Shown: one piece after another, positions 20,576-38,969 of the stretch
How the letters are laid out: each line of letters starts with the position of its first letter
How positions within the stretch are numbered: position 1 is the stretch's first letter
Origin: Psychroserpens mesophilus
GTDB lineage: Bacteria; Bacteroidota; Bacteroidia; Flavobacteriales; Flavobacteriaceae
Assembly (NCBI RefSeq): GCF_000826645.1
Contig: NZ_JXJP01000001.1
Span: forward strand, 434,001 to 498,000
Direction of reading: 5' to 3'
DNA: 64,000 nt
The notes under the pieces: model-generated
The model's database searches: none
Told to the model about the DNA's origin: nothing
The model's input: the letters and a program-made list of their open reading frames with translations, nothing else
Made by a program: the position numbers and the translations under genes

Positions 20576-21181
20576 TTATTGAAAATTTGCATCTGGAAGG
20601 GTAAAACCATTTATGTCAAATCTTCCTTGAGTTATTTGAATGGTGTCATGTGGTTCTTGGTAGTTTCTAACACTACCACTAAAAGTGCCTGATATTATGC
20701 CACTATTTAAATTAAAACTTGTAATTGTTATATTTCCGGAATTTTCATAGGAAAGATAGTTTTGATAGTTCCCAACATCTTTTCGCCAAACCCGACAATG
20801 CATGTACGTATGGTTTAAACCGTCTATGCCGTTTTGACCATTTGATTCATTAACTATGTAGCTTGCGATTCCATTATCATGTAGTCCCTGTATATGCATT
20901 AAAAGACTTGCTGTTTTTTCGCTATTATAATCGTGAACATCTATTTCATTATAATCATTATCAATTCCTCCTCCCCAAAATATCATTGCATTGTCATTAG
21001 TACTAAACGTTCCGTCTCCATCTCTGGGAATAAAAAGGAGTTGATCTATATAGCAACCAAATGTATTGGCTCCGTTTTGAGTAATAGGAGGTAAGGTTCT
21101 TTCACTGTTCAAAATGGTGTCGTCGTTACCACAGCTGAGGCACACTGTTGTAATTACTAAGAATAAGATTGAATGTTTCAT
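20576..21181 (-). CDS. Tandem lipoprotein copy 1 (promoter-distal)
   Basis: Exported lipoprotein of 201 residues: signal peptide MKHSILFLVITTVCLSC with a lipobox (Cys17), tether GNDDTILNSE, then TLPPITQNGANTFGCYID. The C-terminal half has the invariant blocks HTYMHCRVWRKDVGNYQNYL and FSGSVRNYQEPHDTIQIT. Residues about 65-115 differ strongly from its two neighbours. Small Bacteroidota lipoproteins starting with similar text are sometimes filed under DUF6252; I cannot confirm that. Its N-terminus resembles copy 3 and its extreme C-terminus (FDINGFTLPDANFQ) differs from copies 2 and 3. It is the last gene of a four-gene operon. Confidence 0.8.
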   Translation of the reverse strand: MKHSILFLVITTVCLSCGNDDTILNSERTLPPITQNGANTFGCYIDQLLFIPRDGDGTFSTNDNAMIFWGGGIDNDYNEIDVHDYNSEKTASLLMHIQGLHDNGIASYIVNESNGQNGIDGLNHTYMHCRVWRKDVGNYQNYLSYENSGNITITSFNLNSGIISGTFSGSVRNYQEPHDTIQITQGRFDINGFTLPDANFQ

Positions 21182-21203
21182 GAGTTTTATTTTAGAGTTG
21201 TTT

Positions 21204-21812
21204 TTAATTGAAGTCTGTTTCGTCTAGTGTATCCCACTTAAAGTCAAATCGACCATTAGTTATTTGAATGGTGTCGTGAGGTTCTTGGTAATTACGAACA
21301 CTTCCTGAAAACGTTCCTGAGGCTACACGGCTAGAAAGGCTATAGTTTGTAATGGTAATAGTGCCAGAGTTCTCATAAGACAAATAGTTTTGATAGTTCC
21401 CGACATTTTCTCGCCAAACACGACAATGCATATACGTATGGTCTAGTCCGTCAACACTCGTGAATCCATTTGATTCATTTATGATATAATTGTCTGTTCC
21501 GTATTGGTGAATACCTTGAAGGTGTAAAAAAACACTAGCAGTATGTTCACTTTTATAGTCGTGTAAATCATATTCTTGGTACTGAAGATTTCCACTTGGA
21601 TCTCCCCAGACCAAGGCAGCTGGATCACTATTATTAAAAGTTCCATCACCATTTCGAGGTATGAATAAAGTATTATCAATATAACAACCAAATGTATTGG
21701 CTCCGTTTTGGGTAATAGGAGGCAAGGTTCTTTCATTGTTCAAAATGGTGTCATCGTTACCACAGTTAAAACAGATTGTAGTTAGTACCAATAGTAAGAT
21801 CGAATTTTTCAT
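21204..21812 (-). CDS. Tandem lipoprotein copy 2 (middle)
   Basis: Lipoprotein of 202 residues in the same family: MKNSILLLVLTTICFNC, lipobox Cys17, tether GNDDTILNNE. The block NTLFIPRNGDGTFNNSD and the whole C-terminal third (ENVGNYQNYLSYENSG, then FKWDTLDETDFN) are essentially identical to copy 3, while the signal peptide has diverged from copies 1 and 3. The middle part (PAALVWGDPSGNLQYQEYDL...) is unique to this copy. Intergenic spacing of 24 bases on its upstream side and 22 on its downstream side implies one transcript. Function unknown; surface display is likely from the Asn/Asp-rich tether. Confidence 0.8.
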   Translation of the reverse strand: MKNSILLLVLTTICFNCGNDDTILNNERTLPPITQNGANTFGCYIDNTLFIPRNGDGTFNNSDPAALVWGDPSGNLQYQEYDLHDYKSEHTASVFLHLQGIHQYGTDNYIINESNGFTSVDGLDHTYMHCRVWRENVGNYQNYLSYENSGTITITNYSLSSRVASGTFSGSVRNYQEPHDTIQITNGRFDFKWDTLDETDFN

Positions 21813-21836
21813 GTGCGTGACATATTAGAGTTATTT

Positions 21837-22445
21837 TTAATTGAAGTCTGTTTCATCTAGTGTATCCCATTTAAAGTCAAATCGACCATTAGTTATTTGA
21901 ATGGTGTCGTGAGGTTCTTGGTAATTACGAACACTTCCTGAAAACGTTCCTGAGACTAAACGGCTAGAAAGGCTATAGTTTGTAATGGTAATAGTGCCAG
22001 AGTTCTCATAAGACAAATAGTTTTGATAGTTCCCGACATTTTCTCGCCAAACACGACAATGCATATACGTATGGTTCATGCCATCGATTCCTCTTAATCC
22101 GTTAGATTCATCTGTAATATAATCACCAATTCCGTTAGCATCAAGCGCTTGGATATGCATTAACAAACTTGCTGTTTTTTCGCTTTTATAATCATGCACA
22201 TCGAATTCGTAGTATGAAGTTAATTCTGGATATCCTGAAATAAAATAAACGGCTTGATCACTATTATTAAAAGTTCCATCACCATTTCGAGGTATGAATA
22301 AAGTATTATCAATATAACAACCAAATGTATTGGCTCCATTTTGGGTAATAGGAGGTAAGGTTCTTTCACTGTTCAAAATGGTGTCATCGTTACCACAGCT
22401 GAGGCACACTGCAGTAATTACTAAGAATAAGATTGAATGTTTCAT
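21837..22445 (-). CDS. Tandem lipoprotein copy 3 (promoter-proximal)
   Basis: Lipoprotein of 202 residues. The signal region MKHSILFLVITAVCLSC and the segment SEKTASLLMHIQ match copy 1, but the block from ENVGNYQNYL to the C-terminus matches copy 2 almost exactly. This makes it a mosaic of its neighbours. The middle part (QAVYFISGYPELTSYYEFDV...) is its own. It starts 5 bases after the stop of an outer-membrane protein gene, so all four genes probably form one operon. Function unknown. Confidence 0.8.
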   Translation of the reverse strand: MKHSILFLVITAVCLSCGNDDTILNSERTLPPITQNGANTFGCYIDNTLFIPRNGDGTFNNSDQAVYFISGYPELTSYYEFDVHDYKSEKTASLLMHIQALDANGIGDYITDESNGLRGIDGMNHTYMHCRVWRENVGNYQNYLSYENSGTITITNYSLSSRLVSGTFSGSVRNYQEPHDTIQITNGRFDFKWDTLDETDFN

Positions 22446-22450
22446 GAGTT

Positions 22451-22987
22451 TTATTTATTAGATGTGTGTTTAAAATTATATCTGAGTATTGTAGAATACA
22501 TAAAGGTGTTATTGTTGTGATTGAATTCTGCTTGGAATTGAAACCCAAAAGACAATCTATGTTTTGATAAGAACATTAATCGTGTACCCAAGGGGATATT
22601 GAAGTAAGTACTATTAATTGTACCTGATGGAAATTTAGTATAAGAAACACGATGGAGGCCAAAACCACTGTAAACTTCAGTTTGCATCCAGTTAACAAGT
22701 TTTGGATGTACTTCAAACAACAGATTTAAGGATGAGAAACGATCGTGATTACTACCTAAAATATTCAAATCTTCTCCTGCGTTAAATTGTAATCGAAAAT
22801 TTTGTTTATAAATCACAAAACCTAAAGCAAGACCAACATGGATACCACCATTATTGAAGTTGTCTTGCTTTTTATTTGAATTAAAAACACCTAATGGAAT
22901 CAGTTGAACATCCTTAATTTTAAAATTTTGGCTATTTACAATGAAGGCTGAGATGCAAAAAAGAAATAGAAGTAGAATCTTTTTCAT
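22451..22987 (-). CDS. Outer-membrane beta-barrel-like protein of unknown function
   Basis: Exported protein of 178 residues with signal peptide MKKILLLFLFCISAFIVNSQ. The mature part alternates hydrophobic and polar residues in strands (NFRLQFNAGEDLNIL, LNLLFEVHPKLVNWMQTEVY, LSFGFQFQAEFNHNN) and ends with a typical barrel terminus, TILRYNFKHTSNK. It is short for a barrel (about eight strands). ATG 22987 is chosen because it gives a clean signal peptide; a longer frame to 23029 adds residues that do not look like one. It leads the operon with the three lipoproteins, 5 bases upstream of copy 3, so it may be their outer-membrane partner. Confidence 0.7.
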   Translation of the reverse strand: MKKILLLFLFCISAFIVNSQNFKIKDVQLIPLGVFNSNKKQDNFNNGGIHVGLALGFVIYKQNFRLQFNAGEDLNILGSNHDRFSSLNLLFEVHPKLVNWMQTEVYSGFGLHRVSYTKFPSGTINSTYFNIPLGTRLMFLSKHRLSFGFQFQAEFNHNNNTFMYSTILRYNFKHTSNK

Positions 22988-23124
22988 TATTGGAAGGATT
23001 AGTTTGTTGTTGTTCAGACTAATATACAATAAAATATAGAAAATATACTATGTATATGTTATTTTTTAATAATAAAGAAACATTCTAAACAATAAAATCA
23101 TGACTAAGCCAACTATTAAGCATA

Positions 23125-36531: not shown

Positions 36532-36561
36532 AAACCCAAAGCTAATTGTTTTGGGTTTTTT
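36532..36561 (+). terminator. Terminator of pruA
   Basis: A 9 bp stem (36532-36540 with 36550-36558), 9-base loop and T-run. It lies 25 bases after the pruA stop. An in-frame TTG at 36546 for the next gene lies inside this hairpin and is therefore unlikely to be its start. Confidence 0.8.
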
Positions 36562-36605
36562 CGTTGAATGATTTTCGTATATTTATGAAAACTAATCAGC
36601 CAAAG

Positions 36606-38969
36606 ATGAAAAAATTTTACTTCGCACTTGTATTACTTGTGTCACTTTCCGTTGTTGCTCAAGATAAAAAAGATCCGCTTTTAAACTTTGACACTTCTAA
36701 AATGGAAACTACCGTTTTGGTTCATAAATCTCCTGTTGTAAATCTTCAGAATTACAATGAAAAAGCAATAAATGTATTTGCATTTTATCAAGCCTATAAA
36801 GCCATGTCGCAAGGAGATTTAGATAAGCGATTATTGCCATTAGAACATTTAAAAATGTTAAGTAAGCAAAGTTATATCACAAAGGCTATTCCTCTAGCTA
36901 TTTTACATTCGGAATATGAAATGATTACAGATGAAGCCATGCAGAATAATTCGGTTTATAAAGATGCTCAAGGCTATTTAATTAATGATGGTTCTTCTAT
37001 TTTTGAAAGAAAGTATCTTACAGTTGCCTCGCCTCTACGTGCAAAACATAAAGGACTACAAACGACTTTCAATTTGTCGTCTTCAAACATTTTTAATACT
37101 TCTGAAGCTTCTATATTGTCTGTAGAAGTCGATTTCAATGATGGTAATGACTTTAGAACTTTGAGTTTAAATGAAAACATCACAATAACTTATTCTGATG
37201 CAGGTCAGAAGTTAATTGGTTTTAAAATCACATTGGATACTGGAGAGGTGCTATATAGAAATTCGACTATTGACATCACCTATTCTAATGAAGATCTATA
37301 TTCACGATCCAGTCAAGTAGTAACAACAATTACATCAAGCATTACTCCAGATTTATCGCCTTATGGTGTAACAACTTCTTATCCTGGGACTGGTGAGTAC
37401 GAGCTGTTTTTGAGTGCTGATAATGTTCTCGATAAACCTATATTTTTAGTCGATGGCTTTGATCCTGATGATGGTCGTTCAATTACAGGTATCTATGATT
37501 TGTTAAACTTTAATGATGGAAGTGGAACGTCTAATTTAGGAGATCTTGTAAGAGAAGAAGGGTTTGATGTTATTATTTTAAATTTCCCAATATATGTCAG
37601 AGCTCAGGACAATGCTGTTGTTGATGGTGGTGCAGATTTTATAGAACGCAACGCGATGTTGCTGGTCGATTTGATAAACTTGATTAATACTGACAAAATT
37701 GGAAACGAACAAAACGTTGTTATTGGACCGAGTATGGGAGGCCTCATTTCACGTTATGCACTTAATTATATGGAAAACCAAAACATGAATCACGATACCA
37801 GACTTTGGATATCATTTGATGCGCCTCATCATGGCGCAAATGTGCCTATTGGTTTTCAACATCAGTTTAATTTTTTAGCTTTTGGTTTAGATGATTTCTG
37901 GATTTTAGGAGATCAAAATGTTGAAGAATTGCAACCTATAATAGATGGCATGTTAAAATCTCCTGCGGCCAGGCAAATGCTAACCGATCAATTTGAATCT
38001 CATATTACAAATAGTGATGGTGTGACCTTTAACAGTGCTTTAGCCTTGCCACAGCCGTATTATTTCAAAGATGTATTTGATTATAGATTGAATAATCTAA
38101 CTGCAACAGGCTATCCTGAACTCATTCGAAACGTATCTATTATAAACGGAAGCGGAATCAATAATCGTTATCAAAATAATGCTAGTCCGTCGAATGCCTT
38201 ATTACCTGGAAGTCAAATTTTAGATGCCAATATAAATGTCATGACAGGAGCAGATTTAAAAGTTGAAACCTATTTTACGCCTAATGCAGGAACACAAATA
38301 GAAATGAGTAAAGTACATCTGGATTTTGCATGGTGGTTTCCTTTAGCTAATGACAGAATTAACAATGCCAGTGCTGCATCGTATAGTTATTCTGATGGAA
38401 TTGATGCTGCTTCTGGAGGGCTTTTTGATATTCTTGGTTTAACCACAGATTTAGATACTGGAGGTCTTGTTGGAGAGTTTTTAGGTGCTTTGAGTACTGA
38501 TTATTTTAATTTTATTCCAAGTGTGAGTGCTATGGCTTTGAATACGACCAACAATGAAATTAACTGGTTTGATACACTGGCAGGAGTCACAACAAATGAC
38601 ACGCCTTTTGTTAATTGGTATATGCCAGATGATAATGAACCACATGTTACGCTTACGAATGCTAATGTAGCTTTTGCATTAACTGAAATTATCCAAGAAA
38701 CTTTATCTAATTCACCACTTAGAAGTGATGATTTTATCAAAATTGAAAAAAATCCAATTGAAAACGAACTCGTTATTATAAATAGCTACACAATTAATGA
38801 AGCGTCAATTACTATCGTTGATATTACAGGAAAAGTAGTATTCAATAAAACCATTGATTCACTTTCAGGAAGAACTGTTATACCGTTAGATTTAGATTCA
38901 GGATTATATGTACTTGATGTGATTACACAAGATCATTTGAAGTACAGAACGAAACTAGTGTCAAAATAA
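36606..38969 (+). CDS. Secreted alpha/beta-hydrolase-like protein, T9SS cargo (paralogue B)
   Basis: Exported protein of 787 residues, shorter paralogue of the protein at 17269-20493. Start ATG 36606 gives a clean signal peptide (MKKFYFALVLLVSLSVVAQ); an ATG at 36585 is possible. A beta-rich N-terminal part precedes the hydrolase domain: KPIFLVDGFDPDDGRS, then VVIGPSMGGLISRYALNYM with Ser376 as the probable nucleophile, then WISFDAPHHGANVPIG. His680 in PHVTLTNANVAFALTEI aligns with His771 of paralogue A and could complete a triad. The C-terminus is a T9SS sorting domain (IKIEKNPIENELVIIN ... LDSGLYVLDVITQDHLKYRTKLV). Substrate unknown. Confidence 0.8.
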   Translation: MKKFYFALVLLVSLSVVAQDKKDPLLNFDTSKMETTVLVHKSPVVNLQNYNEKAINVFAFYQAYKAMSQGDLDKRLLPLEHLKMLSKQSYITKAIPLAILHSEYEMITDEAMQNNSVYKDAQGYLINDGSSIFERKYLTVASPLRAKHKGLQTTFNLSSSNIFNTSEASILSVEVDFNDGNDFRTLSLNENITITYSDAGQKLIGFKITLDTGEVLYRNSTIDITYSNEDLYSRSSQVVTTITSSITPDLSPYGVTTSYPGTGEYELFLSADNVLDKPIFLVDGFDPDDGRSITGIYDLLNFNDGSGTSNLGDLVREEGFDVIILNFPIYVRAQDNAVVDGGADFIERNAMLLVDLINLINTDKIGNEQNVVIGPSMGGLISRYALNYMENQNMNHDTRLWISFDAPHHGANVPIGFQHQFNFLAFGLDDFWILGDQNVEELQPIIDGMLKSPAARQMLTDQFESHITNSDGVTFNSALALPQPYYFKDVFDYRLNNLTATGYPELIRNVSIINGSGINNRYQNNASPSNALLPGSQILDANINVMTGADLKVETYFTPNAGTQIEMSKVHLDFAWWFPLANDRINNASAASYSYSDGIDAASGGLFDILGLTTDLDTGGLVGEFLGALSTDYFNFIPSVSAMALNTTNNEINWFDTLAGVTTNDTPFVNWYMPDDNEPHVTLTNANVAFALTEIIQETLSNSPLRSDDFIKIEKNPIENELVIINSYTINEASITIVDITGKVVFNKTIDSLSGRTVIPLDLDSGLYVLDVITQDHLKYRTKLVSK

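Follow-up and report, generated by a model that had tools for sequence, protein, structure and literature searches.

Cross-strain clustering of alleles served as a criterion in describing the orphan-immunity arrays of the Vibrio cholerae type VI secretion system (T6SS) (Kirchberger et al. 2017; PMC5361080). In Enterobacter cloacae, the lipoprotein Tli both neutralizes and activates its lipase (PMC10294624), and the TANFOR polymorphic toxins of Bacteroidetes, which have adjacent immunity genes, have been proposed as antibacterial toxins linked to the type IX secretion system (T9SS) (PMC7073777). Here, we analyzed a stretch of 64,000 nucleotides from Psychroserpens mesophilus (contig NZ_JXJP01000001.1, positions 434,001 to 498,000; referred to as the window), in which three tandem lipoprotein genes with conserved ends and a variable core, designated c3, c2, and c1 in the order of transcription, are followed by a gene for a predicted secreted lipase. 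With roughly even confidence, we interpret the array and the lipase as an effector-immunity module, with or without activation of the lipase, that has accumulated orphan lipoproteins.

The locus shares features with each of these systems. As in the V. cholerae arrays (PMC5361080), divergent candidate immunity genes lie beside a single current effector and the remains of putative effectors that were displaced, alleles group across strains or species and not within the genome, and mosaics point to homologous recombination. Unlike those arrays, the putative effector carries a T9SS signal and has no apparent T6SS link. V. cholerae arrays keep 3' effector remnants, whereas 5' stubs are left here because the antidote candidate lies upstream of the lipase. 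The pairing of a lipase with a lipoprotein recalls Tle/Tli (E. cloacae, PMC10294624; Tle3/Tli3, PMC9860674). However, Tli of E. cloacae belongs to the ankyrin-repeat proteins, whereas NF052634, the NCBIfam family of the window lipoproteins, is predicted to be all-beta; Tle effectors are delivered by the T6SS, and the present lipase has a T9SS tail. No Tle or Tli family was found among the Pfam and NCBIfam matches; T6SS genes were not searched for. With TANFOR toxins (PMC7073777), the locus has in common the phylum, the T9SS link, and adjacent candidate immunity genes, but the enzyme is a lipase instead of a nuclease and its partner is an upstream lipoprotein instead of a downstream-encoded protein; neither Pfam nor NCBIfam reported a TANFOR domain in the lipase. 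The logic of orphan arrays is already known from T6SS, Rhs, and contact-dependent inhibition systems. The present locus differs in its T9SS lipase, in the family of its lipoproteins and their position upstream, and in the stubs being 5' ones, which makes it a new form of this logic. Neither the pairing of NF052634 with T9SS lipases nor stub-bearing arrays were described in the literature searched, which excluded most subscription papers and preprints.

Pairing of NF052634 lipoproteins with a T9SS-tagged lipase

All three lipoproteins match NF052634 (Riean_0653 family, DUF6252-like lipoproteins; E of about 1e-41) over profile positions 1 to 176, and their scores of 143, 141, and 141 bits exceed the curated cutoff of 57 bits. 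The model has no function attached, Pfam yielded only a subthreshold match to DUF5025, and DUF6252 was not mentioned in the literature searched. The lipobox cysteine (Cys17) and a conserved LPPITQNGANTFGC block are common to the three copies. Cys17 is followed by GNDD in the window copies and by KDDD or NDDD in relatives; an acidic motif after the lipobox cysteine directs surface export in Bacteroidota lipoproteins.

The lipase has a signal-peptide-like N terminus, as judged from its sequence only, and a T9SS tail at residues 995 to 1074 (PF18962, 2e-07; TIGR04183, 2.7e-06), as expected of T9SS type A cargo. A PF05057 match above the cutoff predicts a serine esterase of the DUF676/PGAP1 type. 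Among 42 relatives, Gly435 and Gly439 of the GxSMGG motif are invariant, and Ser437 and the candidate residues Asp665 and His771 are nearly so; Ser437, Asp665, and His771 plausibly form a catalytic triad. In the structure model (predicted local distance difference test [pLDDT] score, 84), the secondary structure shows an alpha/beta center flanked by beta domains. A fold search with the whole model retrieved mainly immunoglobulin-domain proteins, which has no bearing on the hydrolase domain, and a sequence search of the PDB matched at the C-terminal end. A second, shorter lipase paralogue of 807 amino acids is encoded at positions 36546 to 38969 of the window (plus strand); its immediate surroundings contain no NF052634 gene. 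Like two similar paralogues in other genomes (G079 and G128), it is preceded by a gene of about 542 amino acids whose product starts with the conserved NVPxAxNEPVKSYAP.

The structure model of the lipoprotein (mean pLDDT, 89) is all-beta after a disordered linker. Foldseek returned nothing at an E value of 0.001 or less, and no relative with an E value below 0.05 was found in the PDB by sequence. The best VIA-align match was LpqH, with a Z score of 8.8 over 103 residues, a value often reached by models that have no clear match. The weak resemblance to surface lipoproteins of the barrel type, such as LpqH and the TbpB C-lobe, the all-beta model, and the beta domains and T9SS tail of the lipase would suit subunits that capture or tether substrates at the surface for a nutritional lipid-degrading system, their cores being fitted to different lipids. 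We regard this as improbable, given the lack of a confident structural match, the absence of SusC/SusD-type partners from the gene tables read, and the lipase-less arrays and lipase stubs described below.

To evaluate pairing beyond the window, genome contigs were scanned with a lipoprotein-only query. This yielded 65 loci, 64 of which had a recognizable lipoprotein open reading frame (ORF); two lipase-less loci ending at a contig end were set aside, and a lipase was counted if it lay at most 900 nt downstream. At 51 of the 62 evaluable loci across Bacteroidota, including ones named Flavobacterium, Chryseobacterium, Kaistella, Polaribacter, Pedobacter, and Flaviaesturariibacter, a lipase was present downstream. 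The same kind of lipase follows the lipoproteins in the related genomes G002, G003, G006, G011, and G014 even at only 22 to 30% lipase identity, and the pairing is kept where lipases share only about 17 to 30% identity. In a family sample of 149 genomes, an NF052634 gene adjoins seven of nine lipases of the long class.

Weaker family members were seen in other company. A weaker DUF6252-like lipoprotein repeatedly adjoins a conserved secreted protein of about 620 amino acids (L052, L103, L104, L105, and L106, from G000:C71 and relatives), which in L052 is a beta-propeller (PQQ_2-like); loci of this type possibly represent a second pair of lipoprotein and secreted protein. At L051 (G000:C13:178000-192000), such members adjoin a T9SS-tailed leucine-rich-repeat protein and a 563-amino-acid protein without a Pfam match.

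Array composition, lipase stubs, and the intergenic hairpin

In 44 arrays, 110 lipoproteins and 26 lipases were intact; a further 20 lipoprotein pieces were broken, and lipases were represented by another 27 broken pieces or stubs. Exactly one lipase was present in 19 arrays and two in a single array, while 17 had at least two intact lipoproteins but lacked an intact lipase within the stretch read, a count that is an upper estimate because some lipases are cut by locus or contig ends (e.g., L126 and L147). Stubs of the lipase N terminus, mostly about 60 to 110 residues long including the signal peptide, separate lipoprotein genes in L037, L087, L088, L089/L114, L135, L139, L141, L145, L151, and L219. 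L135 and L219 each contain two stubs with the same junction, and the lipoprotein-stub unit was therefore duplicated after lipase loss. No stub lies between the window copies, which are only 22 and 24 nt apart. Across the arrays, candidate immunity genes are linked to a single putative effector and to remnants of displaced ones; in keeping several lipoproteins after loss of the lipase, they look like orphan-immunity arrays. A single 250-amino-acid ORF at L224:2605-3357 (plus strand) matches both the lipoprotein and the lipase profiles and is possibly a fusion across a stub junction. Two loci of one genus (g298) in a sister family, L209 and L210 (G594 and G684), differ in that one has three lipoproteins with a lipase 4 nt downstream and the other four lipoproteins with no lipase in the stretch read.

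These arrays bear on the alternative that the lipoprotein serves its lipase as a dedicated chaperone, foldase, or activator (Lif-like), required for the active enzyme to be produced or displayed, and gives no protection, with extra copies as decaying or spare duplicates. Transposon insertion mutants of Riean_0653 in Riemerella anatipestifer lose hemolysis, complementation restores it, and the purified recombinant protein is not hemolytic (PMC7881567); this phenotype, the only published one, favors a function as activator or chaperone, either by itself or besides another role. The tight adjacency of the two genes and the correlation between lipase and lipoprotein similarity (Mantel rho, 0.66) point the same way. 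However, a single client would not need several maintained core classes, many arrays keep up to five lipoproteins per lipase, and intact lipoproteins persist beside lipases shrunk to stubs and in the 17 arrays mentioned above. A role without protection therefore appears unlikely to us.

The gap between lipoprotein and lipase is commonly 76 to 94 nt long (82 nt between c1 and the downstream lipase in the window) and contains a hairpin directly after the lipoprotein stop codon. Folding was below that of 95% of shuffles (P ≤ 0.05) in 24 of 31 such gaps and below 99.5% in 21 of them, compared with 8 of 32 lipoprotein-lipoprotein gaps at the latter level, where shuffles preserved base composition only. 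Stem sequences vary between loci. We infer that the hairpin acts as an attenuator or terminator that favors the lipoprotein over the lipase.

The features of the window are listed in Table 1. A 192-amino-acid gene lies upstream of the array (22451 to 23029, minus strand); it is probably not part of the core module, because relatives occur in only two other loci read (L041 and L127). PADLOC gave no matches to antiphage defense systems.

Table 1. Coordinates and properties of the array, hairpin, and lipase in the window
Feature	Position	Strand	Description
c3, first lipoprotein gene in transcription order	21837..22445	minus	202 aa, intact, NF052634; N terminus c1-like, C terminus c2-like, core nearest to first copy in G006
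c2, second lipoprotein gene	21204..21812	minus	202 aa, intact; core of the class that accompanies orthologous lipases in G006, G014, and G011
c1, third lipoprotein gene, adjoins lipase	20576..21181	minus	201 aa, intact; core and last 20 residues like Psychroserpens burtonensis copies 1-2 (weak support)
Hairpin, 11-bp stem and 6-nt loop	20542..20569	minus	Between last lipoprotein stop and lipase start; attenuator- or terminator-like; counterpart in 24/31 related gaps
Secreted lipase/esterase (predicted), 1,074 aa	17269..20493	minus	Signal-peptide-like N terminus; alpha/beta hydrolase domain, DUF676/PGAP1-like, containing GPSMGG (Ser437); beta domains; T9SS signal of the Por_Secre_tail type

Mosaic copies and trans-species core classes

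The initial annotation described the three genes as mosaics, with copy 3 resembling copy 1 at its N terminus and copy 2 in its C-terminal third. A codon-aligned comparison of DNA identity in 45-nt windows bore this out. Over codons 1 to 45, c1 and c3 are 91 to 98% identical (96 to 98% over codons 1 to 30, versus 71 to 93% in the other pairs). The match between c2 and c3 covers codons 46 to 62, with 100% identity over codons 46 to 60, and resumes at 89% over codons 121 to 135 and 95 to 100% over codons 136 to 202; pairs with c1 reach 48 to 80% from codon 136 onwards. Informative sites change sharply from a '13' to a '23' pattern near codon 43, with mixed patterns confined to the core, and the crossover from c1-like to c2-like sequence lies near codon 45, upstream of the core. 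All three copies differ over codons 63 to 120, every pair showing 42 to 69% identity over codons 61 to 90 and 53 to 78% over codons 91 to 120. The earlier statement that residues of about 65 to 115 differ in all copies holds with one qualification: a SEKTASLLMHIQ block common to c1 and c3 sits within the core, and these two copies are therefore not wholly different there. In 37 arrays with 105 pairs of copies, the core was the least similar segment in 99 pairs, with mean protein identities of 68% (N-terminal segment), 33% (core), and 55% (C-terminal segment). The mosaic is neither due to chance nor peculiar to the P. mesophilus genome.

Trees of the separate segments were built from copies of G000, G002, G006, G011, G014, and F. 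buctense. In the core tree, c2 groups with the copies that adjoin the lipase at the same locus in three related species, G006, G014, and G011 (support for c2, G006_2, G014, and G011, 92/97), and c3 groups with the first G006 copy (83/80). The approximately unbiased (AU) test rejected a clade of the three window copies (P = 8e-5). The cores of the window thus form no clade and match alleles elsewhere. In the C-terminal tree, c2 and c3 are sisters (100/99.7) and the trans-species class was rejected (P = 0.001), while the N-terminal tree was poorly resolved. Both AU values are only indicative, because the groups were named after the alignment had been inspected. The conflict between segments supports the gene conversion or unequal recombination suggested initially, and the repeated stub junctions elsewhere demonstrate tandem duplication. 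Since cores group across species and the C termini of c2 and c3 within the genome, the cores represent old classes retained while the ends were homogenized, and not fresh diversification.

The diversifying center initially proposed was not supported in the sense of positive selection. Within classes, the ratio of nonsynonymous to synonymous substitution rates (dN/dS) was 0.08 to 0.31 in the core, below 1, versus at most 0.12 in the C-terminal segment; the ratios are rough because dS was near or above 1 in most comparisons. Between core classes, synonymous sites were saturated. Cores of one class are similar across species, and identical cores were not seen. Conserved ends, a variable core, and recombination between tandem copies would also characterize a system of antigenic or phage-receptor variation, in which the core is reshuffled to evade recognition. 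We consider this very improbable: core classes persist across species with dN/dS well below 1, the strong lipase pairing would be left unexplained, and none of the three copies is broken, while the ORFs flanking the array include neither silent cassettes nor a recombinase.

Proposed effector-immunity module and its implications

The initial annotation envisaged the lipoproteins as binding or recognition proteins, which is plausible, and overlooked the adjacent T9SS lipase, a concrete candidate partner. In the proposed effector-immunity module, the T9SS-tagged lipase would be released at the cell surface as an antibacterial effector that attacks membrane lipids. The lipoproteins would be surface-anchored cognate antidotes acting by binding, with the variable core deciding which lipase variant is neutralized. 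New or duplicated lipoprotein-lipase modules would oust the old lipase and leave its lipoprotein, so that orphan antidotes accumulate upstream of a single current lipase. Recombination among similar copies would even out the ends and keep the specificity cores distinct, and the hairpin between array and lipase probably holds lipoprotein transcripts in excess. The cognate lipoprotein may also activate the lipase, as with Tli/Tle; such a dual role would reconcile immunity with the Riean_0653 phenotype.

Several observations weigh against this module. The requirement of Riean_0653 for hemolysis fits an activator or chaperone, and no toxicity or protection test of the pair was found in the literature searched. 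Two long-class lipases (G126 and G135) have no family lipoprotein, their upstream gene failing the lipoprotein profile, and none adjoins the shorter lipase paralogues whose surroundings were read, including the one in the window. No hypervariable region corresponding to the core was seen in the orthologous lipases, with identity ranging from 0.56 to 0.95 along the length. Cognacy of the lipase-adjacent copy was not supported, because adjacent copies follow the lipase phylogeny no more closely than distal ones do (8/19, P = 0.24); the core class presumed to be cognate in the window is that of c2 and not that of c1, which adjoins the lipase.

Somewhat less confidently than for the module itself, we suggest an interbacterial weapon spread across Bacteroidota, in which T9SS-secreted lipases would be countered by surface lipoproteins. 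Immunity arrays would expand on the upstream side of the effector, with 5' effector stubs left behind, while gene conversion within genomes would homogenize the frame and balancing selection would hold old specificity cores across species.

The pairing assigns a specific enzyme partner to an uncharacterized family of lipoproteins, together with a role that can be tested, and the array illustrates that tandem copies can share their ends yet retain old, distinct middles. If the effector-immunity interpretation is true, T9SS lipases would be tied to interbacterial competition, and the hemolysis phenotype of Riean_0653 would have a possible explanation.
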